From Geosiphon pyriformis (lineage: Eukaryota; Glomeromycota; Glomeromycetes; Archaeosporales; Geosiphonaceae): DNA of 41,219 nucleotides. The position numbers and the translations under genes were made by a program. Below, piece by piece: positions 3,842 through 35,737 of this stretch. Position 1 is the first letter of the stretch, and each line of letters opens with the position of its first letter. Under the pieces are notes generated by a model. That model had not been told where the DNA came from, did no database searches, and saw nothing but the letters and a program-made list of their open reading frames with translations. Location: positions 790,745 through 831,963 of the forward strand of contig JAAOMT010000352.1 of the NCBI GenBank assembly GCA_016748015.1, in the 5' to 3' direction.

Positions 3842-3889
3842 TGTAGAAAATAGTAAAGTTAAAGTTCATAGAATAGTGTTACAACAAGT

Positions 3890-3915: not shown

Positions 3916-4493
3916 GAGAAAATGTATCTTACTTTAGATTTTAACAATTAGAATTATCTTTTACACACAAAAACGAAATAAATATCAAATAATTTGAAAA
4001 ATCAAATCCTAAATTATTTCACTTTTGAAATTAACTAATTCCTACAAAACAGTTTGAAATTGATTAGCTACCAATTTCAGTAAACTGTTAGTGACTCCAG
4101 GCCTGGATAAAAAATGTTTCCCTTGACAGAAATTTTATTTCTTTTACATTTCTTTTATTTTTCTTTTATTTTCTTATTACAATTATTAGAGTAGCCTACA
4201 GATGAGATTCCTGTAGAAGAGTTGACTTTCACAGCAAAGTAACTACACATTTTTAGTGAGCTTCCAGACAAGCAATTCTTGGGAAAGAGTTGATATTTAC
4301 TACAATGTAACTACATAAAAACAACTGGCAAAGAATTGGCCATTCCATTCATAAGTCCAGCAGCTCAAATTATAGGAGATAATTTGAGGATAAATTCAGT
4401 TATCGGAGGTTTAAACACTTCCCATAATCATAAATTAACAGCATTACAACAAACATACAAGAGCTAAAAAGAGACCAAAAACCTCCAGTAACA

Positions 4494-7400: not shown

Positions 7401-8536
7401 CTTCTCACCCAAGCCAACCAAATCAGCAAAAGCATGAGCCCTAATGCTATCCAATGTCGACCATGTCCTCACAAGACAATTAACTTTAAGCAAGTCACCT
7501 GAACCAAACTTTTTAACAATTTTGGCAATTAACAATTCCAAACCAAAGAACTTAGAAAAAAATTTATCTTTAGAACAATAAAATTCACTAAACCAATGAC
7601 TCGAAAATGTCTCATCAGCTGATTCCACTATTATCCTCTTCAAAACTGCCCACATAGCATCCACATCACTATGAGTTTCAGCACCAAAAAATTCATCAAC
7701 AACTGCCAAAAGTTTGGCAGAAAGGCAATCCCTAAATTCAGTCCACTTGGGACTATTAGCATCTTTGATTTTGAACTTCCACTGATCCTTGTTAGCCTGT
7801 TTGCACAAGCTATTCAACTGAACCTCTAGGAGTCCATCCAAGCCAATTGAAACCAAAACAGCATTATGATCAGTATCAAAAAAACCAGACACAAAGCAGA
7901 CCTAATGACCAGCAATGGCAGAAAAAAGATTACTGCTGATAAAAATAAAATTAATTGTCTTTTCAACTCCCTGAGAATTGTTCCATGTGGGAGCTTTTAC
8001 TATATAATGACTAGTAAATGAATTGACCAAACCCAGATTTAAACAGAACTTGAACGTCACACTCCTTTTAGATCTATTCTTATTAAAATTCCCATCCAAA
8101 ACCACAAAAGTACTAGAGTTAACAGCTTCTGCAATTACAGAGTTTACTTCTAAAGCTTGACGAATCTGATCTCAGAAAAGACATCAGCATACAAACCCAG
8201 AACCATGACTGAAAGCTTGCCCTTAAACAAAAGCCAAATTGAAATAATTTGGCCAGGAACCTCCTTAATCTTAGACATGTGGCAAGCCAAAAAATTGTTC
8301 ATAATCACAACAACCCCAATACCAAAAAAACTTTTATCCAAACCAGATGTAAAGACATGCACACTTTCAAACTTATCAGCAATTCAAGGCTTGAAACTGG
8401 ATCTCAATTTTGTTTCTATAATAATAGAAACCATATTTTCGGACTTTTTGTGCCAATGAACAATGTCTTCTTGCTTAGCAGAGACATTGAGACTTCGAAC
8501 ATTACATGTAGCAAACTTTCACACTAACTCCATCAT
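4494..8536 (-). pseudogene. LINE-A ORF2: endonuclease, RT, RNase H
   Basis: ORF2 starts at ATG 8536-8534, overlapping the ORF1 TGA. Domains: AP endonuclease (FATCNVRSLN, ETKLRS, DGNFNKN, FFDTDH), RT (about 7000-5900), and RNase H (YTNG, SELQVVTLV, NMEADAAAG). A 1-bp deletion near 8157 shifts the frame. Otherwise the frame is constant but carries many stops, mostly at Trp or Gln positions of the other copies. Catalytic residues are lost: GGDFN to DGNFN in the endonuclease, both Asp of RT motif A to Asn (NIRKTYNSV, 6555-6581), and FVDD to FVDN (6219-6233). The reading ends at gypsy-1 after AGFTSQ. Confidence 0.9.
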
Positions 8537-10461
8537 TGAGAAGAAAGTGCAGCAGAAACCAAACCAGCATTGTTTATTTTGGCTGAAAGGCCCATAACCA
8601 TAATTACAAAATTCTTCAAAGTGTTTTCTATTTTCCCAATAACAGAAGAATTAAAAATCACTGCTCTTGTAACAGTCTCACCACCAGTGACCACATCTGA
8701 ACTTTCACTCATTACTATATTCACCCCTTGATTCTGCAATAAAGGGGTTACCAACAGTTAACATCTAGGATTAAGCTGAGAAACTATTGGTTCAGGTGTT
8801 TTCAACCTTTTAGCCAGCATATCAACATGCTCTGCAAGACTGGCAAGACTGTTCTTAAGAGCAGCAAACCTATCATTGATTTCATTTGCAACTGGTAGGA
8901 ATGACTTTATCTCCAAAGAGAAGCCAATATTTGATGAAACAACTCAGCCAAAGAGAGGAAAAGAAGATGACCCATTTGCAACTTTTGTTCAAAAAAGGCC
9001 ACTAAAAGAAATGGGATGAGCAACTGGAGCAGAATGTTTGGCATATATTACAGCCAGTCTGTTTTTATCTGTATCTGAAAGCACCTTATGCAATGAACTA
9101 CCAGAAGAAATCTTTCCACCCTTAGCACAGTCTAATGACATATGACCTGACTTCTTATACTTGGCACATCTGGCAGAAACAAGACTAGACCAACGTAAAT
9201 TAGTGCTTTTGAGCACTGGTATAGTCCTCATGGCAGCATCTAATAATTCAGCAGAATCGAAACAAACAACAGTACATCTGACTCAAGCATATATAACTGG
9301 ATAACAATTGATAACACAAGTTTTCCCACTCACAGATCTAACAAAGTCCCAAATGTCATGAACATTAGTTTCCATTGGCAATGTATAAAGCAGTGCCCTA
9401 TGATGATCTCTCACATTCCATGTTTTTTTGTCTAAATTAGCTCTGGCAACATACATGGCATTCTTTCCAATTAGGATAGACCACTTAGCTGCAACCAAGT
9501 CAGCATGATCTGATTGCTCAAATTCAACTATTGCTTTCTGTCACAGTCCCATCAATTGCATTTTGATCGACTTAATTATTTCAAACTTGATTAGTGCAGC
9601 ACGCACAGCCTCTGCTGATGTTTCAACTGGAATTTTTTTAACTACCATAGTCCAATCTGAGCGAGTATTTAATTTTTTGAGATTAGTGTTTACCAAAATG
9701 TCTGCTGCTCTTGTTTTTTTTATAGCCTGCACCAAGCTAGCTTTAGAAGTGAAGGAAGCATAGATAATCCCAGAAAATTTTGAGAGAGTAGAGGCCTCCC
9801 CAAAACCATTGACTTTTAAAAACAATCTTTTAACTATCATCAGCTTCTCTTAAGAGGATTTTCCAACCACTTTATTCAAGCTGATATTCAAAGCAAAAGA
9901 CTTTCTAACAGAAATAGGAACCAAATTTTTCAAGGAAGAGGGAAGTTCTAAGAGAGCATTCGAGAGAATATTATTATCAATATCAAGATTTAAGAAATTT
10001 ATCTTTCCTAATAACTTGTCCAAAGTTTTCTTAATTTTGACACCTGGCTTTTTAGGTGTTTGATCATGATTCTTATCAGTGATAATGCCACTTTTACTAT
10101 AGTCAAAACTAGTTTTTTCTATTAGACATTTCTCCTCCATATTAATACTCTCAGACTCAGTAGTGTCACCAGTTTCAGAACTCCAAGAACAACCACCAGA
10201 TGCCTTAGTTAAAATTCTTCTGCCACCAATACCCTCTTCCAAAGTGACACTTTTTCTTTTTTTCCTAGACAAAACAGGCTTGAAACCACCACCAGAATCA
10301 GACTTTTTAGCAATCTTCTTTATGACGGCAATACTAGGGTCAATGGTAGTTTCGAAATCAAAAAACAGTTTGGTTTTATCATACTGAATATTGAAAAAAC
10401 TTCTTTCAAAAAACTTTTGACTTTTTCTGGAAATTTGAAATGAATGAAAAAAAAAAGTTTC
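4494..10461 (-). mobile_element. LINE-A, non-LTR retrotransposon, 3' end cut by gypsy-1
   Basis: Minus-strand LINE with ORF1 (RRM-like region plus CCHC) and ORF2 (AP endonuclease, RT, RNase H). The 5' end lies near 10461, where a leader shared with LINE-B and LINE-C begins (AAACTTTTTT, then an AAATTTCC-like motif). The 3' end is interrupted at 4494 by gypsy-1; the coding sequence stops at LAGFTSQ, before the C-terminal zinc motif seen in B and C. ORF1 is of a different subfamily from B and C. This is the most decayed of the three copies. Confidence 0.9.
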
Positions 10462-10464
10462 CAA
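8533..10464 (-). pseudogene. LINE-A ORF1: nucleic-acid-binding protein
   Basis: A single minus-strand frame from about 10464 to TGA 8535-8533, broken by several stops but no frameshift. Central region about 9840-9290 is RRM-like (VVKKIPVETSAEAVRAAL, then a second strand and AAKWSILIGKNA). A CCHC knuckle near 9165 reads C-A-K-Y-x5-H-x4-C: the second zinc ligand is Tyr. The N-terminal third is Lys/Ser-rich and unlike LINE-B. The first Met of the frame lies in what is leader sequence in the other copies, so the true start is probably lower and not identifiable. The family role is binding the element RNA. Confidence 0.82.
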
Positions 10465-11409
10465 TTTTTATTATTATTTACTTTTAAATAAATTTTTAAT
10501 TAATTAAAATAAATAAAAAATAATATTAAAACTAAAGTATTATAATAAAATTATTAACAAATTTATTTGTATTTATTTATTAAATAATATTGTTATTTAT
10601 TAACTAAATTTTTTAAAAGAATAATTTTTGATCAAATTTATTTATATTATTATTAATTAAATTAAAATTTTACTATAAAATAAAAAAAATGCTTAATATT
10701 TTGTATTTTTAAATTAAAAAAACATTTTAGATAATTGTAAAAATAGTTTTTAAAAAAAATTTTAACAGAAGCAAATAAATTTTTAAAAAAAAAATATAAA
10801 TATAAAATAATAATTAAAACTTAAAAAAAAACTTATATTATAATATTAATAAAAAAATTTTATTAATAGTTATAATCAAAAACTATTGTTTTAATGCTCT
10901 TAGAATTTTTAAATAAATATTTTTAGTAAGATAAATATTAATTTATAAAATTTATATAATAAATAATTTATTGTGATTTTTATTAAAAAAAACTTTACTA
11001 TATAATAAATATTAAATTTTTAATTATTAAAGTTATTTAAATTTTTTTTAAATAAAATAATTGTTATTTTTTTTGTTTTTATTGCTATTATTATATATAT
11101 ATATATTTTTATAATACGAAATTTTAGTAATTTTTACATTTTTCTAATTTATTATTGGAATTTTTGGTATTTTTAAAATTTTTAAAATTTTTAATATTAT
11201 ATTATTTATTAATTTCGAATATATAATTGGCTAAATTATATTATATTTAACTATTAATTATTTTTTAATTATTTTATAAATAACAATATATTGCTTTTAT
11301 TAAAATTATTAATATTAATTTTTTATAATACTTGTCTAATAAAGAAATTTTTTTTAATATTATGTTAAATTTTTAAACTTTTAAATAATTATTTTTATTT
11401 ATAATATAA
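10462..11409. other. AT-rich spacer between the 5' ends of LINE-A and LINE-B
   Basis: About 950 bp of almost pure A/T with homopolymer runs, an (AT)n run near 11094-11105 and no open frame of note. No gene, RNA or repeat element could be recognised. The two LINEs point away from it. Confidence 0.8.
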
Positions 11410-13385: not shown

Positions 13386-16300
13386 ATGATTTAGTATGGA
13401 AAATAGCCACATGTAATGTCAAGGGAATGAACAATTTAGTGAAGCAAGAGGACATTATACATTGGCACAGAGATTTGAACAATTTAGTTTCGATTGTTAC
13501 TGAGACAAAGTTGAAAGATAAGGTTTGGCCTTGGATTACTACCAAATTCGATGGTGTTCGGGTCTTCACTTCTGGTTTGGATTCTGGTTATCTTGGTTCT
13601 GGTGTGGTGATTGTCATGAACAATTCTTTGGCAAGGCACGTTTTCAAGGTTTCTAAGGTGCCTGGTCGGCTCCTCTCCGTCAGACTTCTCTTCAAAAATA
13701 AACTTTTGGTTTCTGTTTTGGGTCTCTATGCTGGTGCATCTTCAGGTGTCCAATTCTTACAGGCTGGCAACATTAATTCTTTGATTGCTAAGACAGTAAA
13801 TGAATCATCTTTTGTGGTCTTGGGAGGTGACTTCAATGAGGATGGCATTCGTAAGAGTGCCAGTTTCAAAAAGTGCTTTGATTTGGGTCTGGTTAATGTT
13901 TTGGGTAGAAGTGTGCTTGCAAAGACACTGACATGGGGTAACTCTCATGGTGTTGTCAAGACCATTGACTATATGTTTGTCTTTTCGAGCTTGATCAATG
14001 CTGTGGCAGATCGTGGTGTGACTGGTGTCGAGGACTTTTTCGATACTGATCATAAGGCTGTTTCTGTTTCTGTGGGCTTGGATGGCTTACTTGACTCTCA
14101 GCTGAATTTGATGTGCAAGCAGGCTAATAAAGATTGTTAGAAGTTTGATTTCAGAAATGCTGGTGAGAAAGGGTGGAACAATTTTAAGAATGCTACATTG
14201 GCTAATGGCCTAACGTTCTCGAGTGATTTTGCTGCTTCTGCGGAATCTTCAGATTTGGATGCTATGTGGGACATTGTATGTAAAGTAATGGTTCTCTCAG
14301 CAGTTGGAACATTCAAAAAAAAATGGTTTAAGGATTATGATAAGGTTTTTACCAAGAGTTCTTCTAGGTTTCACAAGCTTGAGTTGTTGGTATCCAAGCT
14401 GGTCAAGGCGTCTTGTTTGTTGTCTAGTGTAGAATTTGCGTCATTGTTGAATATGTGGGAGAAGCTCAATGTTAATGGTGCTTCGGTAGTGAAGTCTTTA
14501 TTTCTTTCAAGTTCCAGTTTTGACAGGATTCGCTCGGCTTTGGCTAAGATGAGGAAGTCTTACCACTTTGCTAAGTTGTTGGAATCCAAATGCGCTGAAG
14601 AATCCCGTATTAGGGCGGCTATTGATAGAAGGATGGAAAGTTTTGAATCAGACAAGGGTTACACTATCAGGAGTGTTTTGGAGCGTTCCTTTCACAAAAT
14701 GGTACTGGATCATCTGGTTGTGAGTGACAAGTTGATTTTGGAGCCCAGCTTGGTCAAGGCTAGGGTGGATGGAATCATGGAAGGCTGGACCAGGAAGTGC
14801 AAGATGGTGCCAGATATCTCTGATATTTGGTCTTACCAGTACATGTCTTTAAAGCATGTTTTCGATGGTGCATTTTCTGGTGTGATGAGTCCTGTTGGTT
14901 TTAATGAGTTGTTCAGTGTGGTTTCTGGTCTGCCTGAGGGCAAGGCTGCTGGTCTCTCTGAGATTTCAAATGAGCTTTGGAAGCACTGTGACAGATCAAT
15001 TTTGGACATGCTTTTGGTACTTTTAAATTCTTGTTTGATTCGTGAGTCAATACCTAGTGCTTGGAAGGAAGCCTGGGTCTCAATGATCTCCAAGCCATAT
15101 GAGTGGGAAGGAGTTCTTATGAACATCTGACCTATTGCCTTGATTGAGACTGCCTGCAAGATCCTTTCCAAGATTCTTTCAGATAGGATCTCATTGGCTT
15201 GTAGTACTTTTGACGTTCTGCGTGGGGACAATTTCTCGGTTTTAAAGGGTACGACAACCCAGTCTCCCATTTTTGCCATTGGTTCAATTATTGAGGATGC
15301 TTTGGAGAAGAATCGTGAGCTCTGGTTGGTCTTGCAAGACATGCGGAAGGCTTATGACTCTGTTGGGTGGGAACACCTTCAGGACAGTTTGGTTAGGATA
15401 AAAATATGTCGCAGGTTCATTAGGTTCTTTGGCAGCATCCACAATGGTCACGTTAACAGAGTTATGACGGATTTTGGTTTGACAGATGGGTACGAGGTGC
15501 ATAATGGCTTGGACCAGGGGGAGGTGTTTTTACCACTCCTCTGGTGTATATTTTATGATCCTCTTTTGTGTGAAGTTAAGAGACAGGCAGATGAGTGTGG
15601 TTATAGATTGAATTCTCATTTTATTTCTGAATGTGGTCATGCTGAGTCTTGGGCTAGTGTATTCTCATTTTTCACAGCGGGTGCTTTTGTTGATGATACT
15701 ATCTGGGTTGGCAGCAGTCAAAGTGCTACACAACACATTCTCAACATTGCTAGTGAATTTTTCAGTATCAATGACATCTCAATTAATAATGATAAGACTG
15801 TTACCATTCTCATTAATTGTGATGGTACGGCTTCCTCTTTGCTGATTAGCAGGTCACCCATTTCTATTGCCAAGAAGGGGGAATCGCATCACTATTTGAG
15901 GATCTATTTGTCAACTGAGGGTCTTTCGAAGCCTAGCTTGGCTAAGGTGCATTCTGATATCCGGTTTTTTTCTAATTTAGTCCTGAAAAAGACAGTATCT
16001 GATAAGCAATTTTCATATTTGGTTTTGGCGGTCCTCTTTCCTATCATTGGATATAGGACACAGTTCAGTTACATTCCTATTAGTGCTTGTGGAAAGTGGG
16101 ACACTTTGATTTGTAAGGGCTTGAGATCTAAGTCTGGTTTGCCACGTGATTTCTCCAATGATGTGATTCATCATCCCTCTCTGTATGGTTTGAAGACTTT
16201 TGAATAGGTTCAAGCTGAGAGCAAGATGGCTTCGGTCGTTTCCTTCACGAACTCTGTTGGGATTTTGGGGCATCTATTTTCTCACTGGTCACATGATCTT

Positions 16301-19370: not shown

Positions 19371-21465
19371 CTATACACCTAAACTACCAAATGAAGGAAT
19401 GTCATGCAAAAAACTGAAGCCTAATTTGGACAGATAACCACTTAAGCTGAAGCAAATATGGATACCTAATCTAACACCAAGCTCGCAAATCATAACAAAA
19501 GTCTACGGAAATGAGAGACTAGAGACTGAAAGGATAGCCACACCATCACATGGCAAAAGATTATTCTTTTCATAAAAAGATCTTAATTTAGCCAATGGCA
19601 GCCAGATAGCAGACCTGTAATTCACAACAATGTTTCTGATCAAGTTAACAATCAGTGCACCACTATTTAGTCTAGTGGTCAGACAGTCTACCACATCAAC
19701 CACTCAACTTTTCAATACAAAACTCTTTGCTAATGTGATATACAAACTGTTAGAGAATTTGGTCTCACATAGAGACCAAACTACCATGTCACCATTAGCA
19801 GAGACACCACTTGATACAACCCACTTATAAACAATGTCAGATAGTAGATTTTTCTTGGCATCACTATCTAGTGCACACAAAAAAACATGGTCTGAATTTT
19901 CCACTTCTCCACAATGAATACAAGCCACACTAGGATAATTAGGATTATATATTCTCTTCCTTTTAGCAGTAATGTAACACCTTCATAATATAAGATTGGA
20001 GCACTGCTGACGAAATGCTAGTATAGTTAGAGTGAATATTACTATTAGAATACTATATCTTAAGAGTCCTGGCCATGTCTAAACCACTACCAATGTCTGT
20101 ATTCATGATGCTGTCAATGCATTTGGATTCCCATTTAACAAAGCTGATTGCACTAAACAATGACTTGACAAAGCAATAAGCATTTCCAAAAACTATCCTG
20201 TCCTCAACAGTTAAAAACCAATACGGAATTTTGAGAGGCAGCAAAAAACTGGTAACAGTAGCAGTGTCAGTAAAAAAATCAGCTTGTTTATTTTTAATAA
20301 CATCTGAATGACCTTTGACCTTTTGCCAATTAACTGATAAATGTTTTCTAAAAATGACTTGACAAATATGTTCTTTTTTAATCCAACAATTTCTGCAAAA
20401 GTTGGAAACAGGCACACTACTGTCGAATTTACATATGTTTAATAAAGCCTGACTGTCTGTGAACAAAGTAACAGAAAAAAAATTGGGAATACACTCTAAG
20501 ACGAGAGCAATAGCCTGCATTTCTACTAAAGTCAAGGACAGTAAACCATTTATCTTGACTCCAATACCAAGATTGACATCTGGAAAGTAAGCAGCAGTAC
20601 CATTACAAATGTTCACCAATCCAAAATCTTTGACAGAGCCATCTATGTAAATTTCTACAGAACTCAACAAATGTTTCTCAACAGAGCCACAGTCACAATA
20701 ATGTCCAGAAGAAAGGAGTTGAAAACTTACCACCCTATTATGCAATAAACCACCCCCTTCTATAAAACTGACCAATAAGGTAAACCAAGCAGGAACCAGA
20801 CTTCTAGGATCCAGTTTCTTCTACCTGCGAAAAGTGAGCCATATAAAACATATACCACTACGGTCCAAAAGTTAGTTGATAAAAGCAATGTTATATTTCT
20901 TGAGAGATTTAACCATACTTAAATAACTGTCCAATCCCAACACTTCCACTACCATAACACCTCTCCCTGCCTGAAACACATTCGGCAGCACATCTCCAAG
21001 AGAAAGATTGCAAAAGGCAAGAGTGCATATAGCACCCACCAGAAAACAATTCAAGGGATCAATTGACAATTTTACTGGAAACCAGAGGGGATGCCGGGAC
21101 ATCCAGCAAGCAACTTGTAAGTCCATAGCCCTATGCTTGAATAGATCACCAAGGATTTTAGCACTATTAGAAAATTTGATTAGGTTAGCCACCAGATTTT
21201 CAGCCAGTACTTGTTCAAAAGTCTTCAAACCATATAATTCAAGGTGGTATAAAGCCTCATTCAAAAAGTTTTTAGGCAGATTAGCCTTGAGCTTCAAACC
21301 TTTTTTCAACAATCTGTCCCATTTTTTACAAACACTACTTGATGTGCAACTAAATTGCAGTCTGTAACTAATGATGGGTTGTAAAACTGCAGAGATCAAG
21401 TACAAAAACTGCTTCTTAGTAATGGCCTTCCTTAAGACTATATTAGAAAAAAACTTGACATCCGA
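19371..21465 (-). pseudogene. LINE-C ORF2, 3' part: RT thumb, RNase H, zinc motif
   Basis: Continues the RT from SDVKFFSNIVL after the gypsy-2 insertion. RNase H shows IYIDGS, LVEMQAIALVLE, LFTDSQALL and KNKQADFF, so the acidic residues are kept. The C-terminal zinc motif CIHCGEVENSDHVFLC (C-x2-C-x7-H-x3-C) is near 19880-19930. A small indel around 19965 changes the frame just before the zinc motif. Stops include one after RTLKI (about 20050) and one near 19503. The natural end is TAG 19373-19371, aligned with the LINE-B end. Confidence 0.88.
21462..21465. other. target-site duplication of gypsy-2, left copy
   Basis: CCGA before the LTR at 21466; CCAA follows the other LTR at 31171-31174. 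The single difference is a transition. A 4-bp duplication also gives the correct frame for LINE-C after excision, while 5 bp would not. Confidence 0.75.
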
Positions 21466-22341
21466 TGTTACGGGATGGTTTTCTTGGTATATTTAATTAC
21501 TGATATCCCGTTTTAATTGCAATCAGTCTCTTGTGAGTTTCTCAATTCTATTTGTGTGATAATATCACTTGTTATACTGAAGGCTTTCTCTTTAATGTTG
21601 CAATTTAAGTTATTTCTCAATTCCTGATTATTGTGTGTGTTTATGTACTCCTTCCCAAAGGCTGAACTAAAATCTACCCACTGTCTGGAGTTTTCTCTAA
21701 GACTATTTTTGCAATTGCCTAATGTGTTTCTCTAATTTAGAAACATGAAATGTTAATGGCCTTTAGCGCTTTTCCTAATTCTTACAATAAAGCTTTTATC
21801 AATTAGTAACAACATGAATAATTTTGATCAGGGATTATTCTTCCAAGAGATTCAACTAATGAATGATAATTTCATTTAATAATTAACACAAGTGAGTTTT
21901 TTACTACTTTGGGGTTGTGATAATTCAGTTTTAAATATTTTTTTTTATTTTTTTTTGATTTAAAAGTTTTTTGGGATATTTAATTTTAAAGGTATGATTT
22001 AAAGTGAAGTTTGTTGAATAAATTGGATTTATTGCTTAATAAGTTATGATTTTTATTACTTGATTGGCTTTTTTCAATATTAAAGCTACTGTATATATAT
22101 ATGTTTGTAGTTCTACAAGAAAACACATTGTAATACTTTCTTTTTGATATTTCAATCTGGTGTTTGCTGCTATCACCAGTTGGTGTTGGCTGCTATTGTG
22201 AACTGGTGCTTGCCACTATTGCGAGATGGTGTTTACTACTATGTTAATCATTACTTTTCTAAGATTATTACTGTGCTATATTATGATTGAATAGTTTATA
22301 TTATTTTTATGATTCTTTTGCTAAATTCTTAAACCATAATA
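21466..22341 (-). repeat. 3' LTR of gypsy-2 (876 bp)
   Basis: Pairs with 30294-31170. In plus view it starts TGTTAC and ends CATAATA (inferred ancestor GTAACA). It carries four units of a 20-24-bp repeat at 22157-22246 and an AT-rich TATA-like tract at 22091-22104. The PPT adjoins at 22342. Confidence 0.95.
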
Positions 22342-22355: not shown

Positions 22356-23022
22356 CAAGATTGAGCTCTGTTGAAATCAAAATTAATTTCTTCATTAAAT
22401 TCTAAGTTACTATAATAGTTCAATACTGTGTTATTAATTTGTTGTTGTAATTCTTAAAATTGCGAGTTGATAAGTCGTCCAATACTGTTGGTTGTTATTA
22501 TGTTCATGGTTGAGTCTAACAATAGTTTGTGACAGTTTTCAAATGTTTTGAAAATTCTGTAAACTGTTTTTAAATGGAATATAGTGTTGGTTTTACCAAT
22601 AAAAAGTTCTAATAGTTGGATAGTTGTTTTGTCAAACACTCTAGTTGAGTTTTTTGAGTATAATGTTTGTATGTTCAAGTGCTTTCCTAGTTGATAATAA
22701 CAGTAGTTAATTGGAAATTTCGTTTTCAAGTTGCTAAATGTGTTTGGTGTTAATTCACTTATTTCTATTTCTTCTATTATTAATGTATTGCCCAATGCTA
22801 TTTCTAATTTTTCAATAACTTTGTTAATAAATTTGTTGTTATGTTTGGTAATATTATATGGTTCAAAATTATGTTTTTTTCTTGTTTTTGGATTTTCTAT
22901 TGTTTTTTTATGTATGTTATTTTGGAGCTATTAACTGTGATTTCCAGATCGGATTTTAATTATTGTAAGCTTTCAACTAATTGTTGAGTTATATTGTTGA
23001 TGTTTTCTGGAATAAGTATCAT
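22355..23022 (-). pseudogene. gypsy-2 ORF3, conserved protein in the env position
   Basis: Starts at ATG 23022-23020 (MILIPENI), aligned with the gypsy-1 ORF3 Met (MTIP), and ends at TGA 22357-22355 next to the PPT, about 223 codons. A 1-bp shift near 22870 and a few stops break it. The C-terminal half (from GNTLIIEEIEISEL) is the best preserved part and aligns with gypsy-1 through the YCYYQLGKHL, VYRIFKTFENCHKLL and NNTVLNYY blocks. No known domain, membrane segment or signal peptide is evident. In its N-terminal part it shares the integrase frame, so it could also have been an integrase extension. Confidence 0.72.
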
Positions 23023-23151: not shown

Positions 23152-24485
23152 TCATAGAATTTGTTCTGGTAGAATTAAAGGTAATTGTGTTCCAATTCTG
23201 GGTGTTTTTGTTGTTATTACTGGTTTACTGTAATAGAATTTCAGCCAGTTATCATGTGCTGCTTTTTTTAATATTTTATCATTTAGTCTTAGCTTGTATG
23301 CTCCATTTTCAAGTATTTCATGAATATAAAATGGTCCATCTCACTTGTGATCAAATTTTCCACTCCATTGTTTTTCTATTTTTGTACAATGCAACAATAC
23401 TTTATCTCCAATTTTGTAGCTAATTATATTATTTGGTAACTGGTTATTATGTCTCATTTTTTGTTGTTTTTGTGATTGTTCAATATTTTGTGCTGTTTTT
23501 CTTCTTTTGTTTTCTAAAGTTTTCATTAATTCGTATGTTCTTCTAAGTAGTGTTTTCTGGAATGTTGCTTCAGTAATAGTGTCACTTGGATAAATTAGGA
23601 TAGTAAGTTCAACTGGTAATGTGGCTTTTTTTCCATAAACTAGTTTAAATAGTGTGAATTGTGTAGTATCTTGTTTTACTGTTCTATATACTAGTAGTAC
23701 TGCTGGTATGAACAAATCCCATTTTTTTCATGTTTATTACTAATTTTCACTAGTAATTTGCATAATGTGTGATTAAATCTTTCAACTAATCTATTTGTTT
23801 GTGGATGGTATGATGATGACAGTGGTTGCTTGATTCCAAATTTTTGGCTAAGTTCTTTTAAGGTGTTGTTTACAAAGTATGTGTCTTGATCTGATAGCAA
23901 TTCTTGTGGATATTCATGCTGACAAATTAAGTCTTTATGTACAAATTGAGCTATGGAAATAGCATCAGCTGTTTTAATAGCTCTAGCTTCTGGCTATTTG
24001 ATAAGATAGTCTACAGCTACTGCAATATAACAGTTGTTTCTTGTTATTATTGGTAAGAGTCCAACTAAATCAATTCCAATTCTGTTAAATGGCTGTCCAA
24101 CTTTTATTGGTCTTAATAATTCTGTTGTTTTTGCTCTTCCTCTTCATTGGCATGGGTCACAATTTTTTATGTATTGGATTATGTCTAAACTCATTTTTGG
24201 CCAATAGTAACGGCTAGTTACATGTTGGATAGTTGCTGTTTTTCTAAAGTGGTTTGAATGAATATCTGAGTGCATGTTAAATAAGATAGTTTCTTTTTTA
24301 TTTGTGATTATAACTCTTAATGGATTATCTGGATTTTGTCGATTCCAGTAATAAAGTATGTAATTTTGGATGAAATAGTGTTTTGTTAATTTTTGGAGCT
24401 TAATTAGCTCTTTTACTGGTATTTCTTTATCTATTTGTAGTGTTTCCAAGTATTGGCTGAGGTTTTTGTAAAGATGGTTGTTCAT
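23152..24485 (-). pseudogene. gypsy-2 integrase as a separate ORF
   Basis: Begins at ATG 24485 in a different frame from RNase H, 29 nt after the RNase H stop. The start (NLSQYLETLQIDKE) matches the gypsy-1 integrase start. H2C2 finger MHSDIHSNHF to NCDPCQ; DDE core with D in GIDLVGLL, D in LLSDQDTYF, E in NRLVERFNHTL; GPF module DGPFYIHEI. Stops include TAG in IK*PEA and TGA in HK*DGPF, both Trp in gypsy-1. A 1-bp loss in an A run near 23720 shifts the frame. The terminal TGA 23154-23152 is at the same place as in gypsy-1. Confidence 0.9.
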
Positions 24486-26349
24486 TGTTGTTGTGGCAGG
24501 TGGGTTGGTGATTTTTATGTGTGTTTCATTTTTAACAAACAGTCAACATTAGCATTTTTGGTACCTTTTTTGTATTTGATAATATAATTATATAGTGCTA
24601 ATGTTTGTGAGCATCTGGCGTATTTTCCTTTTAGCACTTTTTTGTTATTTAACCAGATCAAACCTCTATAATCTGTGGTAATCTCAAAGAGTTGGTACCA
24701 TAAATATGTGTCAAAGTGAACACAACTCCAGACTACTGCTAAGCATTCAAGTTCGTGTGCTGTATAGTTTTGTTCTGCTGTACTGAGACTTCTGCTGGCA
24801 TAAACAATTACACGTTCTCTTCCATTATTATCTTTTTGTAACAGAATGGCTCCAAGTCCAGTTCTAGAGGCATCTGTGGCCAAAATAAATTTCTTGTTGA
24901 AATTCGGATAGATCATTATTGGTAATTCAATAAGCTTTTGTCTAAAGTACTCAAAAGCTTTTTGTTGTGCTTCAGTCCATTCAAATTTCACATTTTTGGA
25001 TAGTAGGTAATTAAGGGGTTTAATGATGTTTGAAAAGTTTTCTACAAAGTGGCAGTAGTAAGATGTGAGTTCTAAAAAGCTTTTAACTTCTAAAACGTTT
25101 TGAAGTACTGGAAAATTTTTTACTTTGTCTATTTTTGATAGATCTGGTTTTATTCCATCTTTTCCAATTACATGTCCTAAAAATGCTAGCTCATTTTTTC
25201 CAAAGAAACATTTTTCTAGATTTAGTTTAAGTCCAGCGTGTCTTAATCTCTCAAAAACTTGTTGTAAATATTGGAGATGATCCATGAATTTTGACGAAAA
25301 AACATTTGTATCATCCAAGTAGACAACAATGGATTGTTACAAGATTTCAGAGTAAATTATGTCCATTAGTTTTTGGAATGTTGCAGGAGTGTTTATCAAT
25401 CCAAATGGCATTACATTGAACTTATAATTGCCATTTTGTGTTGTGAATGCTGTTTTATGCCTGTCCTTTGGGTCTATTTCCACTTGCCAGTATCCACTGG
25501 TCAAGTCTAGTGTAGAAAACCATTTTGCTCCTCCAAAAACATTGAAGATTTTGTTGATTAATGGTATTGGGTATGAATTTTTGGTTGTTTTGCTGTTTAG
25601 TTTGCAATAGTTGATGCAAAATCTAATTTTTCCATTCTTTTTCCTTACTAAAACAACTGGTGAGAACCATAGGCTCATTGATGGTTGGATTATTTCTTTT
25701 TTCAACATGTTTTGGACTTCTTTTCTGATAAAATTATGTTCTATTGGTGGGACACAGTAAGTGCATTGTTTTTTAGGTCTAGTATCTCCAGTGGGGATTT
25801 GGTGTTGAACCAAGTTGATTCTTCCAAATTCGCCATTTTGTGAAAATATATCAGAGTATTTTAAAATTAGTGCTTTTAATTATCACTGTTGGTCAGGATC
25901 CATTGTTCTAATGTTTAATTTGGCCAATTCTTCTGGCATAAATTGATAGCATTCCAATGGTTGTTGCTAATTTATTGAAGTGAGTTCACAGTAAAGGGCA
26001 ATTTCTGGAAAATTTAAAATTTCTTGTGGTGTTGACATGTTTTCTAGCTCTGTTCTGAGGTATCCAATGATGGTATCTTCTGGAATGTAGATGGGTTCTT
26101 CTGTAGTGTTTGTGATAGGAATTTTTATCTATTGAGCTTTATCAGCTGGAATAAAAAAGTTAGTAAGTCCTATGAGAAACTGTTGGCAAGTTTTTGAATA
26201 AGGCTCAAATATTAGGTCTTTTTCTTTAATTGTTCTTTTTATTCTTATTTCTGATTTTCCATATGATAGAAGTGTGATGAACTGCTCAGTTTTAATTACT
26301 TTGCCTTTTTCCTCTATTGTTTCAGCAAAATTTGCTTCAATTCTTTTTC

Positions 26350-26790
26350 CTGTTGATCCGAAACCAAAAGTTCCTCTCGTTGTTTGTAACAATTCCTCAC
26401 AATTTTCTACTGGCACAAATTTCCCAATTTTTGCCAATGGTAAGAAAATTGCTTGTGTAATCTTTTCCTTAGATTCAATGGTATAAGGCTTTTCTGAATT
26501 GTTCTGTAGCAAAACCATCAAATTTCCAGTGTATCTGAAGTCAATTACTCCTCTTTGAATGCTTATTTCTTTTTTCACAAGACTTGATTATGATGCTATT
26601 TGAATCATTATTCCTGGCAGAATTTCAACCACTATTTTTAGGTCGATTTTGGTGATGCTCCTGGGTGGTAATGTTGTGGATTTGTCTTCCAGATAATATA
26701 GATCAAATCCAGCATCAGTTGAATGGGCTCTTTCGGGTATTATTCCTAAGTGCCCATTGTCAAAGTATTGGATGTTGATTACCTGTTTTA
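26350..26790 (-). other. trimeric-type dUTPase domain in gypsy-2 Pol
   Basis: dUTPase hydrolyses dUTP to dUMP and pyrophosphate, keeping uracil out of DNA. All five family motifs occur in order: motif 1 STDAGFDLYY; motif 2 AS-stop-SSL (normally R-S-S/G-L); motif 3 RGVIDFRYTGNL; motif 4 KITQAIFLPL; motif 5 TTRGTFGFGSTG. Length of about 145 residues fits one subunit. The catalytic Asp of motif 3 and the Arg/Gly-rich fifth motif are intact; the stop falls exactly on the motif-2 Arg. The domain is in frame with protease upstream and RT downstream, so it was part of Pol. Confidence 0.93.
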
Positions 26791-26904
26791 GGTTAGTATA
26801 GGCTATAAATTTTTCTGACTCAGGACCTTTAAGTGAGTCTTGTTGATTTATTGATTGATTTTAAGACTGCTGATTCTCAATTTCTATTTTTCTTTCTAAG
26901 TCCC

Positions 26905-27530
26905 ATTTGTCTTGACACTCTTCACAGCACTGATTTTGGCATGGGATAAGACAGTTTTCACAGAGGTAAGTGTTGATTTGGGCGAGATATTGTTCTTACT
27001 TTTGTTAAGTAGGGCATAGTTGTTGGTAGTAGTTCTGGAATTTGTTCACTGAATCAAACATGTTGTAACTGGTGACTTTGTCGGCTACTTCGGCTGACTC
27101 TTTCCAACATTGTATTTCTTTGGTGGTTTTTTCTCTTACTTTGGTCTGTGCAGTGTTGTACAACTTGTCCTCATTGTGTGGGTAATGCTGTAGTCTTTTT
27201 AACGCTCTGTTGAATGCTGCTTTGAATGGCATTCCTCCACTTACCCAATCACAGATGAGAATTGTGTATTGGCAAGTTGCATTATATGTTCCTCTTCTGC
27301 CTAGTATGTCATTTTAGTTACACCCTCTTGGTAATGGTTCTCCACAAGCAAGGCATGGTTCCTCATCCCATTTTTTGTGTCTTTCTGGGTAATCATATTT
27401 TTCTTTGTTACAACGGTTACAATAGTAGTGGATGGGGTTTCTTGGGTCTTCGTCTGGTGCACTGCACACAGTCATAGACAAGAGTTTTTTCTTACAAACT
27501 GAGCATTCTAGCTTTGGTCTGCATTGCTGG
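26905..27530 (-). other. double cysteine-cluster region between protease and dUTPase
   Basis: About 200 residues lie between protease and dUTPase. Cluster 1 (about 27510-27320) has spacing C-x2-C-x9-C-x14-C-x2-C-x18-C-x2-C-x7-C, eight Cys in CxxC pairs, which suggests two zinc sites. A helical part follows (FNRALKRLQHYPHNEDKLYN). Cluster 2 (about 26970-26915) reads C-x2-C-x3-C-x3-C-C-x2-C. I do not recognise the domain. Zinc binding is inferred from spacing only. Confidence 0.7.
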
Positions 27531-27699
27531 TGGTTTCTTTGTGAACTTATCTGGTTTTATTCAGATTTTTTTTTGCTGGTCCACATTGGTACAGCTGGTA
27601 GTTCTGTTCTTTGGTCATTAGCCCAAGAAAGCTGATAGATTTCGATGACTGATAGTACTGAATTTTTCTTAAATTTGAAGATAGGTCTTTGGTTGGTGC

Positions 27700-28200
27700 T
27701 GGGTTTTTGGAAGTGGCCACAGGTGGCTAGAATTCTGGCCTGGTGGCTATTATAATTGATCAGAAGCTCTTGGGTGGTCCAGTCTAGAGTGGCGTTGGCT
27801 TTTGTTAGCCAATCATTCCTTATTAATACTTGATATTGTGTAGCATCTATTACTAATACTTTTGTAGGTATTACTATGCCGTTAATTTCGAAAGGAAATA
27901 AGTTGATTTTGCTATGAGGCAGCTTTGTACTTCTATTGGCTGTTATAATTTGGAACATCACAGCATGATTAACTTTGAAACCCAGTTGGTTTATTAGTTG
28001 AAGCATTATGATGCTTTTAGTGAATCCACTATCTAAGATAAGTTTAATTGGGGTATTGTTTACAGTGGCTTCCATATACATAGCAGTAATTGGGCATTTT
28101 TTGTCCAATGCTGCTTCACTGAACATAGTCTTGTTTTTTTTTAATTCAAAAGGAAAAATAGCTGCGAGGCTGCTATCTTTGGTAACAACTGCTAGTGGTA
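27700..28200 (-). other. retropepsin-like protease domain of gypsy-2
   Basis: IKLILDSGFTKSIIMLQLIN carries the D-S-G active site (about 28020-28034). A later hydrophobic strand with VLVIDATQYQVLIRNDWL and NATLDWTTQELLI matches the flap and C-terminal part of gypsy proteases. The active-site Asp is intact. The role is maturation of the Gag-Pol polyprotein. Confidence 0.88.
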
Positions 28201-28569
28201 TTGTTTGGCTCAATTTGTTGAAGGAATTTTTGGTTTTGTTTATGTTTCTATCATCATTGTTTCCGATAATCAGATTTTCTGGTATATTAAGATAAGTTTG
28301 TTGATAATTTTGGTAGTTTGGATTGGTTTGCTGACTGGTTCCAGCATGATTTGGATTCCTTTGGACCAACACGTTCTGGTTCCACATGAGCTGATTTCAG
28401 AGCTTGGAACACCAATTCGGGTTGGCTATCATGGGCTGTTGCTGGTAAGTTCTTTGATTTTGATACATAGTGGAATATTGGTGTGATATTGGCGTGTACT
28501 GGTTTCTGGACATTTGGGGTGGCACATAATAATTATTTTTGCATGCTTCCTGCATCATTCGCATTTGAC

Positions 28570-28611: not shown

Positions 28612-30274
28612 CACATGTTTCTGTTCTGAATTCCTGGTGCGATAAGCAAATATTTCAACTGTCACTGACTTTCTGGCTGTGTCTTTGGGGTGGTTGGTAT
28701 GTATTTCTTCTTGGATCCAGGATGAGATAACTTTCTATTTTCTTAGAGAGTTCCTCCCCTAATTGTGTTATTTTTTTCTCTAATGTTTCTGTCTTATTTT
28801 CTTCCATTACCATGTTAACCATTTGACTATGGTTAGCTTCTTTCTCAGCCAATTCAAGGGCTTTGGTGAGCATAACGGCTTCTGGTAAGGAATTAGGGTG
28901 GGCAGGGCATATTCTTCCTAAAATGCTGCTTTTTAATCCTCTAATAAACTGATTTAAAACCTAAGAATCAGTGTAGTATCCTTGTTTAATCGCTTCAATC
29001 TGATGGTAAATTTGATTGAATCAAGCAAGATATTGGGTAACAGTTTCATTGGTACTTTGCTTGATAGTATTGAATTCATTCTGTAGTTGGATTATGGCGT
29101 TTGGATCGCTAAAATACTCTAGAAGTGCATTTTTAAATTCGGCAAAGCTCGTGGGTTTTGTTTCCAGGCTTTAATACCATGAGTTAACTGTGCTTTTCAG
29201 GAAGAAAGATAATGTTTGAATTGCTCTTTGGTTATTCCAATTATTTGCTTGGATGGTTTTTTGCGCTTCTTTGAATCATGTGTACATGTCTGTTTCTTCT
29301 TCTTTTCCTGAGAAATCTGTTAGTCTTGCGATGTATAGTGTGGCTATTTTATTGCTGTTTTCTGCTGGTGGGCTTATTGGTCTAAGAAGAGGTGGGATGA
29401 TATTTCCTTGAGTGTTCCTAAAGGTGGCTTCTCTTATATTCAGTTCTTTCTCTTGATTATGAGTTTCTTGGTTTTTGGACTGGCTGCTTGTTTCAGTGAC
29501 TGGTCTTGTGCTTGTTTTTTCACTGGTTTCTTCAGATTCCGATTCAGACTCCTCTTAACAGTTTTCAAACTCCACTCTGAATTTTGGTTGAAAAAAGGGT
29601 TTTTGGAATAGCAATGAATATCTTTTTGTAATTGGTATATCTTCCTAATTGTGTTGTTTGAACTTCTCAATATAATTAGAAGTTCTCGGTGTTTGTGAGA
29701 TTAATATGGATGATGATGCAGCTTCTAATGGAAGTTGGATTTTATTATCTGGGGAAAAATGATAAAATCTTTCTTCTGGTGAATGAATGTGTTGTTTTTT
29801 TACTGATTGCGTGATGTTTTTCTTAGGTGTTTGGACAGGTGTTTCTAATTTTTACTGATTTTCTTTATGATTAATTTCTGGATTGTAGATGTGTTCTCTG
29901 GTGTTCTTTGTGGATATTGGAAAATTTTTGTTGGTGTATTGTTCTATTTCGCAATGAATTTTGACAATAGTCATGGTTATTACTGCTATTTCTTTGGTAG
30001 TGTATTGTGATAATTCTCTATACAATCCAAGTTTTGTGTTATGTAATTCTTCTTTCTTTTCTATATGATAATTTATTCTGGCATTGATATAATAAGTGAG
30101 GGCAGATTTTGCTAGACAATATTCTTTTGGTAATTCAAGATTACTTTGATGTTATGTGTAAATAGCATGGCAGAATTCAAGAACAATAAGGTTAAGAGTT
30201 TTTGTTGCCACTTTTTGTTTCTTTTTTTTTAACAATAAATTAATGCTAATTATTATTTTTTTTTGATTTTCTTT

Positions 30275-30291: not shown

Positions 30292-30293
30292 AA

Positions 30294-31170
30294 TGTTACA
30301 GGATAGTTTTCTTGATATATTTAATTGCCGATATCTCATTTTAATTGCAATTAGTCTCTCGTGAGTTTCTCAATTCTATTTGTGTGATAATATCACTTGT
30401 TATACTAAAGGCTTTCTCTTTAATGTTGCAATCTAAGTTATTTCTCAATTCCTGATTGTTGTGTGTGTTTATGTACTCCTTTTCAAAGGCTGAACTGAAA
30501 TCTATCCACTGTCTGAGGTTTTTTCTGAGGCTATCTTTGCAATTGCCTGATGTGTTTTTCTAATCTAGAAACACAGAATGTTAATGGCCTTTAGTGCTTT
30601 TTCTAATTCTTACAATAAAGCTTTTATTAATTAGTAACAACATGAATAATCTTGATCAAGGATTATTCTTCCAAGAGATTTAACTAATGAATGATAGTTT
30701 CATTCAATAATTAACACAAATAAGTTTCTTACTACTTTGGAGTTGTGATAATTCAGTTTTAAATATTCTTTTTCATTTCTTTTTGATTTAAAGGTTTCTT
30801 GGAATATTTAATTTTTAAAGGTATGATTTAAAGTAGAGTTTGTTGAATAAATTGGATCTATTGCTTGATAAGTTATGATTTTTATTATTTGATTGGCTTT
30901 TCTCAATATTAAAGCTACTGTATATATATATGTTTGTAATTCTATGAGAAAACACATTGTAATACTTTCTTTTTGATATTTCAACCTAGTGTTTGCTGCT
31001 ATCACCAGTTGGTGTTGGCTGCTATTGTGAACTGGTGCTTGCCACTATTACAAGATAGTATTTGCTACTATGTTAATCATTACTTTTCTAAGATTATTAC
31101 TGCACTATATTATGATTGAATAGTTTATATTATTTTTATGATTCTTTTGCTAAATTCTTAAATTGTAATA
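30294..31170 (-). repeat. 5' LTR of gypsy-2 (877 bp)
   Basis: Near-identical partner of 21466-22341. In plus view it starts TGTTAC and ends GTAATA. On the element strand the four-unit repeat (30986-31075) lies upstream of a TATATATATA tract (30920-30932), the expected U3 order. CCAA follows at 31171. Confidence 0.95.
30986..31075 (-). promoter_or_regulatory. four-unit tandem repeat in gypsy-2 U3
   Basis: Units of 20-24 bp with plus-strand core TGGTG(T/C)T(T/G)GC..CTAT, also present at 22157-22246 in the other LTR. Different sequence from the gypsy-1 repeats but the same place relative to the TATA tract, so probably enhancer units. Confidence 0.7.
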
Positions 31171-33744
31171 CCAAATGAGCCTTGGCCAAACTTGGTTTAG
31201 ATAGGCCATCAATCAAAAGAAAAATACCCAGATATCTATAAAATTCACTCTTCTTGGCAATTGAAATCTTAGAGCCACTAATAGACAGTGAAATATTCTT
31301 GACATCCTGGTTAATAGAAATGGCAACCATCTTATTCATGTTTATAGAAATATCATTAATAAAAAAAAATTTACTGGCAATATTTAGAATCTGCTGAGTA
31401 GCAGTCATGCAATTCCCAATCGAGATAGTATCATCAACAAAGGCTTCTACAGCAAAGAAAGATGTTTTGCCACTTTTAGGGTCAACTCTACCAGTTTTTG
31501 TAAAAAAATTTGTATGTACTCTATAACCAATTAATTGCTTATGCCTTTTAACCTCACAAAGCAGAGAATCATAAAAAATCTTCCACAATAGAGGTAAGAA
31601 CACCTCCTCTTGATCCAATCTATTATAGACAGTATACCCATCAGTGAGCCCAAAGTTGGTCATCACCCTGTTAAATCTATTATTGTGTATGCCACCAAAA
31701 AACTCCACAAAATGGGGACACATTTTGATCCTCTTGAGACAATTAAGCAAATAAAACCAACTGACAGAATCATATGCCTTTTGCATATCTTGGAGAACCA
31801 ACTACAGCTTCCTGTTCTTTTTCAATACATTCTCAATTAAAGAACCAACAGCAAAAATTGGGGATTGGGTGGATGTGTCCTTCAAGATTGAGAAGTTGTC
31901 ACCATGTAAGATATCAAGCTTGCTACAGACCAAGGAGATTTGGTCTGAAAAGATCTTTGACAAAATCTTCTGGGCCATTTCAATCAAAGCAATTGGTCTG
32001 GTATTAGTAAGAGTTCCTTCCCAGTCATAAGACTTCGGTATCATAGAAACCCAAGCATGCTGTCACTGTGTTGGAACCTGACCTGATGCCAAACATATAT
32101 TGAATATGTCCAACAGACCACTCAAAACTTGCCTATTATCATGTTTCCAGAGTTTATTGAGAATACCTGACAGGCCAGCAGCTTTGCTATCAGGCAGACC
32201 ACCAACAACTTAGAAAAATTCATCAAAACTGATATTAAACATAATTTTTGCAAAGGCATTATCATTAACATAACTTAAGGGAACATATTGGCTAGACCAA
32301 CATTTAGGCCATACTTTAGGCACCATGCAGACTTTAGTCCATTCTTCTATAACCTTGTCAACTATAGGCTTAACCTCATGAGGTTCTAAGACCAATTCAT
32401 TATTGACTACTAGATGGTCTAAGACAACTTTCTGGAATGGCCGATCCAAAACACTCTTGATCATTCTATTTTTATCAGAACAAAAGTTCTCCATACACTT
32501 GTTTATGGCCTTTCTGATCATCTTATTTCTGGCAATCCTGAATTCAAAGTATTTAGACCTACAATATCTCTTCTTAACCATAGACAAATGACCCAAAATC
32601 TTATCTAAAGCCTCACAATTATCAATTATAATATGTACTTCAGAAGCATCTTTCATATTAATGACAAACCAGACATCAAGAAAGCATGCAGTTTCTAACT
32701 CTTGGAAGGAGCTCACACTTTTTACAAGTTTGGCTACCAAACACTCCAGCTTGTAGAACTTAAATGATTGCTTATTCCTAGAACAATCAAACTTATTAAA
32801 CCACTGCCTAGAAAACACCTTATTAGTGGAATCAATTACTACACATTTCAAAATTTCTCACATAGTGTCTAAATTACTATTGTCTTTTGCACGAATAAAG
32901 TTACCCACCAAATTTGCAAATTTGTCTGCTGAATACTCTCTGAACTGCAACTACTTGGTGACATTAGCATTATTGATTTTAAACTTCTATTTGTCCTTAT
33001 TGGCCTGTTTACGTTTGGAATTAAGACTGACATCTAACAGACCACCCAAATCAACTGAAACTGAAACAGATCTATGGTCAGTGTTAAAAAATTCCGAAAC
33101 AAATTCTACCTTATAGCCAGCAATCGCAGACATTAAACTCTGGGTCACAAAAATAAAGTCAATGACTTGCTCAACACTCTTAGAGTTGCTCCAAGTAGGA
33201 GACTTGGCCAATAAATGTTCACACAATAAATTGAATAAACCCAAGTTCACACAGAATTTAAAAGTCACACTCTTCTTTGAATTACTCTTATTGAAATTCC
33301 CACCCAAAACCACAAAAGTACTGGAGTTGACTGCTCTGGCAATAAAGGCATTAACATTAGCTGCCTGACCAAATTTTGTCTCAGCAGAGGCACTAGCATA
33401 CAAACCCAGAACTGTGACAGACAACTTCCCTTTAAACAAAAGTCTAATTGAGATAACATGACCAGAAATCTCCTCGACCTTAGACACATGATGAATCAGA
33501 GAGTTATTAACAATGATAGCTACCTCAGCACCAAGAAAACCTTTATTCAAACCAGAAGTGAAAATCCAGATATCATCGAACTTGTTCATAATCCACAGCC
33601 TAATGTTAGATCTCAACTTTGTCTCCATAATTACTGAAATCATATTCCCTAATTTTTTGTGCAGCACACAACATCTTCTTGTTTAACAAGCATGTTGATG
33701 CCATAAACATTGCATGTAGCAATTTTCCAAACTAAATTAGTCAT
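31171..33744 (-). pseudogene. LINE-C ORF2, 5' part: endonuclease and RT
   Basis: Starts at ATG 33744-33742 (MTNLVWKIATCNV), overlapping the ORF1 terminal TGA. A 1-bp deletion near 33676 (between QEDVV and HKKLGN) shifts the frame. AP endonuclease: METKLRS, VVLGGNFNKSN (catalytic Asp changed to Asn at 33295-33307), VIDFIF, FFNTDH. RT: LQDMQKAYDSVSW, LDQEEVFLPLLW, AFVDDTISIG, so motif A and motif C are intact. Stops include TAG in RKL*LVLQD, a Trp in LINE-B. The frame is cut by gypsy-2 after LSKPSLAKAH. Confidence 0.9.
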
Positions 33745-35619
33745 TAATAAGAGGAAGATACTGAAAAATCCAAGCCAACACACAACAGACCCAACTTTGT
33801 CAAAACTGAACCAATAGAGATCTCAAGAGCCACCAACTTTAACTCCAAACTGCCCACCTTGATGGTTAAAACTTTTGAACTGCTTGGATCCAAAGATGAG
33901 ACATTAGAGACAATAGGAGCAAAAGATGGAAGCATTAATTCTGGCCCATCCAGAACCATATCTGAACTTAAACCCAAACCATCATCCATAGAGGTGTTCA
34001 ACTCATGAAGTGAAAGAGGAGGAGCCTGAGCTGTCAATACTATGTCATTGAGCTTTTGCATCATACCAGAAACTTGATCTGCCAAAAGTTCCAAAAAATG
34101 TTCTACAGTGGCCAACCGAGCACCCAAAAAAGAGTTATTAGCAAAAACAGACAGAATACTGTCATTTATGCCCAAAGCATTAGAAAAAGAAGAACCAGGA
34201 CTAGAATCAGAATGAAAACCACCAGGAGAATAGACAAGCAAGACCACCTGTGCCCAAGATTTGCCACCAAAAGTGGCAGGATGAAAAATAAAAACACATT
34301 TCTTTGCATACAACTTTGCCAGCTAAAGGTGGCAGTCATCTGAAACAGTTCTTTTAAATAATTTCAAAGATCCAAAACTAAAAGCAACTGATGCAACACA
34401 CTCCAAAACAGAATGTTCTAAGCACCCATATTTCTCACAATGAACCAAATCCATCCTAGTCCAAGAAAGTCTCATATTCCCAAATATTAGTTCAGTGTGA
34501 AATGCAGATTTAAGTCCATCTTCCGATTCAAAACCAATAACAGCACAGTGAATCCGATTGCCAATTTCTAGTGAGCAATTGATTACACAAGTTTTCCCAC
34601 CAGCCTCTTCTAAAAGAACACCAAAATCATGTGCAGTTGTTCCCACAGGCAAAGTAAATAGAAGTGCTCTAAAGCAATCCCTAGACATCCAAGTATTCCA
34701 ATCTCTCATGGCCATGACCATATGTACTGAGTCTTTACCAATGAGGAAAGACCATCTGAATGCCAGTTGCTTAGTCTGTTCCAATTCAGCGAATTCCACC
34801 ACAGCCTTTTGCCACATTCTAATCAGCTAAACTTTGATTGACTTAATATTATTAAACTTAGAAACTACGGCAATGATCATCTTCTTTGATGTATCTATGA
34901 GAATTTCTTTGATCATCACAGCCCAATCTGATCTCATTTTTTGTTTCTTAAGATTGCTGTTTATGTTAATCCCTTTTTCTCTGGCCAATGATATGGTTAC
35001 TTCTATGCTTTCTTCAGAAGTAAACATTAATCGGATGATCCCTTCAAATTTTGAGGGGGTAATGGCTCCCCCAAAACCATTGACTGTTAAAAAAATTTTT
35101 CTAATTAACTGAGTCTTTGCTGTTGCCAATTTACTATCCATAGCTGAAAGATTAATATCCAAAGCAAATGACTTTTTAATTAACACTTTCACAAAAGTTT
35201 TGATAATTTTAGGGTCAATCCACTTTTTATCTAGAGAGATAGGCAAGCGAAAAGGAAGCATCACTTTATCATCATCCATATGAAAGTTGGGAAAGCTGAG
35301 TGGAAAACCAAAGCCAGCACCAGTGTTGACTTGCTTTGTCTTGGGTGTAGTAGTAGTTAAGCCCACAAGAGACCCACCATTTACTCCAGACATGTTAACA
35401 TCCTTGTTCTTGCCAAATAGACTTTTTACATTAGAATAAACACTGCCACTAGATCCAGATTTGTTTAAGGATATATCTTTTTTGTCCTCAGAGTGTTTCA
35501 CATTACCAAAAACCATCTTTTTCTTTTGAGAAAAGAAGCCACCAGTAGGACCATGAAAAGCACTTTTAGGAGCCTTCTTCTTAGGTGTAGTGCTACTAGT
35601 AGTAGCTTTTATATCTATG
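33741..35619 (-). pseudogene. LINE-C ORF1: RRM-like and CCHC protein
   Basis: Minus-strand frame. The protein reads back beyond Met 35516 to about 35619 (ATTSSTTPKKKAPKSAF), where the LINE-B ATG position appears as ATA; the start is probably lost. RRM-like part about 34920-34700 (WAVMIKEILIDTSKKM, VEFAELEQTKQLAF). Knuckle near 34430 reads C-E-K-Y-x5-H-x4-C, with the second Cys changed to Tyr. The tail ends with a premature TAA (33746-33744) directly before the shared TGA (33743-33741). Close in sequence to LINE-B ORF1 over most of its length. Confidence 0.85.
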
Positions 35620-35737
35620 AAAAATAAGTTATTATTAGGTAAAAAAATATTGATATAGACTAAAAAAACAAAAAACTTCTTTTTCAGAAAAATGCACTTT
35701 TTGGGGATTTGTGGAAATAAGAGAAAGAAAAGTTTTT

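Follow-up and report, generated by a model that had tools for sequence, protein, structure and literature searches.

The window analyzed here, a stretch of 41,219 nucleotides from Geosiphon pyriformis (contig JAAOMT010000352.1, positions 790,745 to 831,963), contains on its minus strand a decayed copy of a Ty3/gypsy lineage that is numerous in this fungus, bounded by two long terminal repeats (LTRs) of about 870 bp. Its gag-pol region runs in the order gag, protease, Cys-rich domain, dUTPase, connector, reverse transcriptase (RT), RNase H and integrase. The dUTPase is a canonical trimeric-type domain found throughout the element family, and the connector behind it likely adopts a dUTPase fold too, as seen in a single structure model. 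We consider it fairly probable that the whole is best explained by a decayed member of a lineage whose intact copies have a working trimeric dUTPase, followed by a second, motif-less dUTPase fold. The original prediction, made from the sequence alone, had recognized the five dUTPase motifs in order and in the same frame as protease and RT, and proposed that a Ty3/gypsy element of a likely glomeromycete carries a dUTPase within its Pol. All these points were confirmed, and the motifs could be assigned to the minus strand, which had not been specified; the Cys-rich domain and the connector with its dUTPase-like fold had no place in that prediction. The features of the element are listed below, with identities to a related copy from the same genome, L021 (the same genomic place as L007).

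26354..26773, minus strand: canonical trimeric-type dUTPase domain with five motifs (tblastn with the L021 domain, 84% over 140 aa)
25799..26353, minus strand: connector (84% to L021; four in-frame stops)
About 26021-26338, minus strand: part of the connector (first ~105 residues) matching the dUTPase-like-folding region of the P0009 model, mapped by hand from the alignment
26879..27538, minus strand: Cys-rich domain of ~200 aa in the protease-dUTPase gap (83% to L021)
27794..28138, minus strand: retropepsin-type protease (L021 comparison; Pfam RVP_2, E 6e-9, in open reading frame (ORF) 27557-28396)
25169..25798, minus strand: RT (RVT_1 in two ORFs; 85% to L021)
24539..25168, minus strand: RNase H (RT_RNaseH_2, E 9e-35; L021 comparison)
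24144..24542, minus strand: integrase zinc-binding (H2C2) ORF (PF17921, E 3.6e-15; frame differs from RNase H)
23694..23993, minus strand: integrase core piece (PF00665, E 7e-5, 23.5 bits, under the curated cut-off of 32.6)
29240..30211, minus strand: gag piece (70% to L021; five in-frame stops)
30293..31162, minus strand: 5' LTR, the right-hand LTR on the plus strand (LTR comparison, 870 aligned bp; edges approximate)
21465..22333, minus strand: 3' LTR (LTR comparison, 870 aligned bp; edges approximate)

The downstream half of the dUTPase, in ORF 26129-26587 (minus strand), matched PF00692 with E 6.4e-12 and 45.8 bits against a cut-off of 22, and in L021 the match covers profile positions 4-129 of 129 (E 8.7e-25). 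The domain thus combines five motifs in order with a score above the curated cut-off, as PF00692 demands, and it lies between protease and RT of an LTR element. When the genome was searched for the family and the best 150 of 3,181 candidates were scored, every one exceeded the cut-off; at least 150 such matches exclude chance as the source of the signal. They also show that the domain is family-wide and not a one-off capture, an outcome for which the original prediction had left room. In the window copy a single in-frame stop falls inside motif 2, so that this copy is unable to make the dUTPase enzyme.

In the window copy a single frame holds gag, protease, dUTPase, RT and RNase H. Besides the stop in the dUTPase it is interrupted by stops in the gag piece (5), the gag-to-protease spacer (5), the Cys-rich domain (3), the connector (4) and RT (1), and by none in protease and RNase H. 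L021 has the same domain order in an uninterrupted frame of 1,307 aa that extends from the end of gag through RNase H, and its LTRs agree at 97-98% in two gap-free stretches (245 and 127 nt); the LTR pair in the window is 92.5% identical over 870 aligned bp. Gag, protease, RT, RNase H and integrase follow one another between the LTRs as expected of Ty3/gypsy elements (Metaviridae), an assignment in which the integrase core piece scores below its cut-off and the gag profile match comes from L021 (Retrotrans_gag, E 4.6e-15, in the stretch following the part equivalent to the window gag piece). The protease of a relative, P0001, was modelled with a Ddi1-type fold.

The abundance of the cassette was estimated from 20 random stretches of 10 kb (188,645 readable bases) of the genome, which comprises 124.7 Mb in 406 contigs. 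Six RT loci were present in this sample, four of which (L027, L031, L039 and L044) have Cys-rich domain, dUTPase, connector and RT in order, with the dUTPase of L031 in two pieces; the remaining two, L030 and L032, have protease and RT without the three other domains. Locus L041 breaks off after the Cys-rich domain, and L036 consists of RNase H only. Extrapolation from the four copies gives about 2,640 per genome (Poisson 95% range 720-6,770), a figure open to bias in that the 20 contigs sampled were 19 from the dUTPase search plus that of the window. Protein searches with 29, 33 and 115 matches yielded 141 distinct proteins, all named Geosiphon except P0037 (JGI) and P0042 (ENA). The dUTPase queries matched 139 of them, the connector queries 129 and both kinds 128, and in 128/128 of the latter the connector follows the dUTPase with a gap of at most 51 residues. 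A dUTPase without connector was found in 11 proteins, including P0037 and P0042 (in four of the 11 fewer than 80 residues are left after the dUTPase), a connector without dUTPase in one (P0010), and neither in one. A few of the 141 proteins have whole domains in other orders, and many resemble gene models made from copies in decay. No connector homologue outside Geosiphon appeared among 115 matches at E<=1, in a search that needs shared exact words and similar length and may let distant ones escape, and a PHROGs search gave six weak families of one member each.

In the model of the relative P0009 the region of the connector folds like a dUTPase by fold comparison, adjoining the first dUTPase domain, and the dUTPase of Epstein-Barr virus (EBV) and the dUTPase-related UL82 of human cytomegalovirus (HCMV) are among its structural matches. 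In hhalign comparison with a small general dUTPase profile the later strands of the connector align in the same order, and a first run against the Geosiphon dUTPase profile gave the same register. One of 34 connectors matches PF00692 (E 0.12), collinearly over residues 24-96. No dUTPase motifs were seen by eye in the aligned connectors, all five lying in the first domain. We would give about an even chance to the view that an LTR lineage doubled its dUTPase, or gained a tandem, of which one half stayed catalytic and the other became a pseudo-dUTPase devoid of motifs, lodged between the catalytic half and RT.

An alternative, which we hold to be possible though it falls short of even odds, is that only the canonical dUTPase is real and that the connector is an ordinary pre-RT linker to which AlphaFold gave a familiar beta fold. 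Several observations weigh on this side and against a second dUTPase. The fold was obtained in one model, P0009, with a mean pLDDT of 47.6 and a pTM of 0.31, in which scores drop toward both ends of the connector region (52 at 661-670, 72 at 751-760). It was not replicated in the model of P0001, which represents the family of the window element (81 relatives) and ends with the connector: the connector blocks there are mostly below 50, reaching up to 75, and no dUTPase occurs among the listed fold matches, a list filled by protease-type chains. These lists barely tested some parts of the models, where other folds are possible. Sequence support is weak as well. Against the Geosiphon dUTPase profile the connector gave a non-significant hhalign P of 0.28, and in a rerun 24/120 shuffles reached the score, with the best alignment elsewhere and in another register; against the general profile 4/80 shuffles did as well (5/80 with a wider profile), and the global mode failed (75/80 and 22/80 shuffles). 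Connector profile searches of PDB sequences returned nothing at E<=10. In the Pfam scan 33 of the 34 connectors had no dUTPase match, and dUTPase figured among 21 weakly matching families, most of which surely arose by chance. In P0016 the later connector and the RT lead-in fit the Pfam spumavirus protease model (E 2.9e-6), which hints at a general pre-RT region.

As to the first dUTPase domain, it is unlikely in our opinion that it has lost its enzymatic function and now has a structural or interaction role. Such a case is known from bovine immunodeficiency virus, in which a dUTPase-related segment without activity is nevertheless needed (PMC4261571; here and below, published systems are taken from excerpts of the cited papers). 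Motifs 3 and 4 do differ from those of the host gene (GYTG for DYRG, KEK for GDR), and the canonical dUTPase is poorly modelled in both P0009 and P0001, which likewise speaks against our interpretation. However, the aspartate of motif 3 is kept in 19/20 and the GFG of motif 5 in 20/20 of the best-scoring loci, a selected set, and the ratio of nonsynonymous to synonymous substitution rates (dN/dS) is well under 1. Its median (NG86), from 15 of 20 loci after five with a stop were dropped, was 0.39 within family A (66 pairs), 0.14 within D (three pairs) and 0.24 between A and D (36 pairs, with dS near saturation); in the other domains dS was often beyond estimate. A different origin, capture of the domain from the dUTPase gene of the present host, might be considered since the host does have its own gene, which alone fitted a strict motif pattern (L022 around 1501; G000:C262:402677) and has a central exon that matches human and other eukaryotic dUTPases. 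This origin is highly improbable. The host gene is spliced into at least five exons, the domain is common to many diverged element families, and the element dUTPases (families A-D) are 22-33% identical to the host protein versus 44-55% to the metagenome element P0037. In the phylogeny that the original prediction had proposed as a check, families A-D and P0037 form one side of a split (98/96), with the host gene, a poxvirus dUTPase and P0042 on the other, so that P0037, and not the host gene, is the nearest outside relative; the tree comprises 15 rows with a midpoint root and several long rows, P0033 and P0029 being left out. Tree and identities thus indicate that the domain has long been part of the element lineage, and they rule out a recent capture of the present host gene; an old capture from an ancestor is possible. 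No relatives of P0037 were confirmed in viral contigs.

In intact members the dUTPase would most likely work as a homotrimer, hydrolysing dUTP to dUMP where reverse transcription takes place. The cDNA would then take up little uracil and could escape cutting by host uracil repair before integration, which would help in hyphae with a low nucleotide pool. The connector would most likely be a second dUTPase fold minus the catalytic motifs, a pseudoenzyme or spacer that may pack with the dUTPase trimer or with RT.

The original prediction had also taken the decay of the locus as a hint of protection from uracil, and this received no support. Three copies were compared over 3,243 columns. C>T or G>A make up 209 of the 231 changes private to the window copy; in the other two the corresponding figures are 36 of 80 and 50 of 78. 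Changes in the window copy affect 65/161 CpG sites versus 10-15% in other contexts. On the coding strand, C>T and G>A occur at 28/80 and 37/81 CpG sites (p 0.20) and at 68/598 and 76/480 sites elsewhere (p 0.04, a slight G>A excess), and the LTR pair differs at 64/849 sites, all by transitions. Since both strands are affected, most strongly at CpG, the pattern is as expected of deamination of integrated DNA, and it fits DNA that was probably methylated. Glomeromycotina methylate their elements. A dUTPase acts on the dUTP pool before cDNA synthesis and not on deaminated cytosine, and would therefore not prevent such decay. Retroviral G>A editing is not favoured: the spectrum is near-symmetric, unlike the lentiviral pattern, in which G>A rises when dUTPase is lacking (PMC4531489).

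The position of the dUTPase between protease and RT, which the original prediction regarded as unusual, has been published for PosPlaTy3-5 of Postia (PMC2864245), for the bdelloid elements Juno, Vesta and TelKA (PMC5408684) and for a planarian Burro-like element (PMC6431247). A dUTPase is also reported in Phanerochaete and Tuber elements (PMC2864245) and in Pol in PMC2774666, and dUTPase domains are enriched along with retroelement domains in Entomophthora muscae (PMC11105155). PosPlaTy3-5 and the Geosiphon element are alike in having the domain in Pol at this place. The Postia, Phanerochaete and Tuber elements are treated as chromodomain elements in a supplement title of PMC2864245, whereas in the Geosiphon element no chromodomain was noticed in the pieces of the 3' end that were scanned: ORFs 23341-23727 and 22454-22927 had no Pfam match at E<=0.001 and one further piece none at E<=0.1, with an ApoC-I match of ORF 23341-23727 at a laxer limit and below its cut-off. 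By description, the excerpts on these fungal elements mention no Cys-rich or second dUTPase-like domain, and those on bdelloid and planarian elements no second dUTPase-like domain (PMC5408684, PMC6431247). P0037 (882 aa) and P0042 (1,937 aa) have protease, dUTPase, RT and RNase H in the Geosiphon order but, unlike the Geosiphon element, no connector match.

In lentiviruses the dUTPase is positioned after RT. Retroviral dUTPases (feline immunodeficiency virus, equine infectious anaemia virus, betaretroviruses) resemble that of Geosiphon in their trimeric-type motifs and in being part of a retroelement polyprotein, but are single domains, unlike the Geosiphon dUTPase with its connector (PMC4531489). 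Tandem dUTPase folds, with catalysis lost in some, as proposed for Geosiphon, are known in herpesviruses (double-domain dUTPase EBV BLLF3; dUTPase-related proteins such as HCMV UL82); in the herpesvirus dUTPases, one monomer of two fused domains forms the enzyme, whereas in Geosiphon the first domain holds all five motifs instead of sharing them with the second (PMC11599850). The two tandems would be parallels, with no sign of common descent.

The Cys-rich domain, with paired cysteines, is carried along with the dUTPase cassette and matched no Pfam family at E<=0.1 when the L021 stretch was scanned. It is reminiscent of the extra zinc knuckle near the dUTPase of Juno; the knuckle follows the dUTPase, whereas the Geosiphon domain precedes it (PMC5408684). 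Gypsy elements without dUTPase at L030 8500-9700 (plus strand) and L032 5300-6900 (minus strand) have a short cysteine motif in the protease-RT gap, perhaps a forerunner of the Cys-rich domain.

Elsewhere in the window, a further gypsy element runs off the left edge; its RT and RNase H, 62% and 52% identical to those of L021, lie at 2-1246 (plus strand). An RVT_1 match (E 5.4e-15) at 15131-16207 (plus strand), amid long ORFs at 11.4-17 kb, perhaps belongs to a non-LTR element. Repeats that are 72-78% similar, about 25.2 kb apart and with long ORFs occupy 5028-10467 and 31136-35735 (both minus strand); five of their ORFs were scanned without a Pfam match at E<=0.001.

A dUTPase in LTR elements is a known trait whose role is unclear, and a genome with an estimated hundreds to thousands of dUTPase copies in several diverged families provides a natural test of uracil exclusion as a driver of retrotransposon success. 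At the level of literature listings, with subscription journals mostly outside their scope, we found neither a dUTPase element of Geosiphon nor a retrotransposon with a second dUTPase-like domain reported, and a second, worn-down copy of the dUTPase fold in such an element may be new. If the connector is a pseudo-dUTPase, doubling of dUTPase with loss of catalysis would have taken place outside large DNA viruses, which would hint that the dUTPase fold serves the polymerase beyond its chemistry. A true tandem would be an independent parallel to the doubling and redeployment of herpesvirus dUTPases, in a cassette present in an estimated thousands of copies in one glomeromycotan genome.
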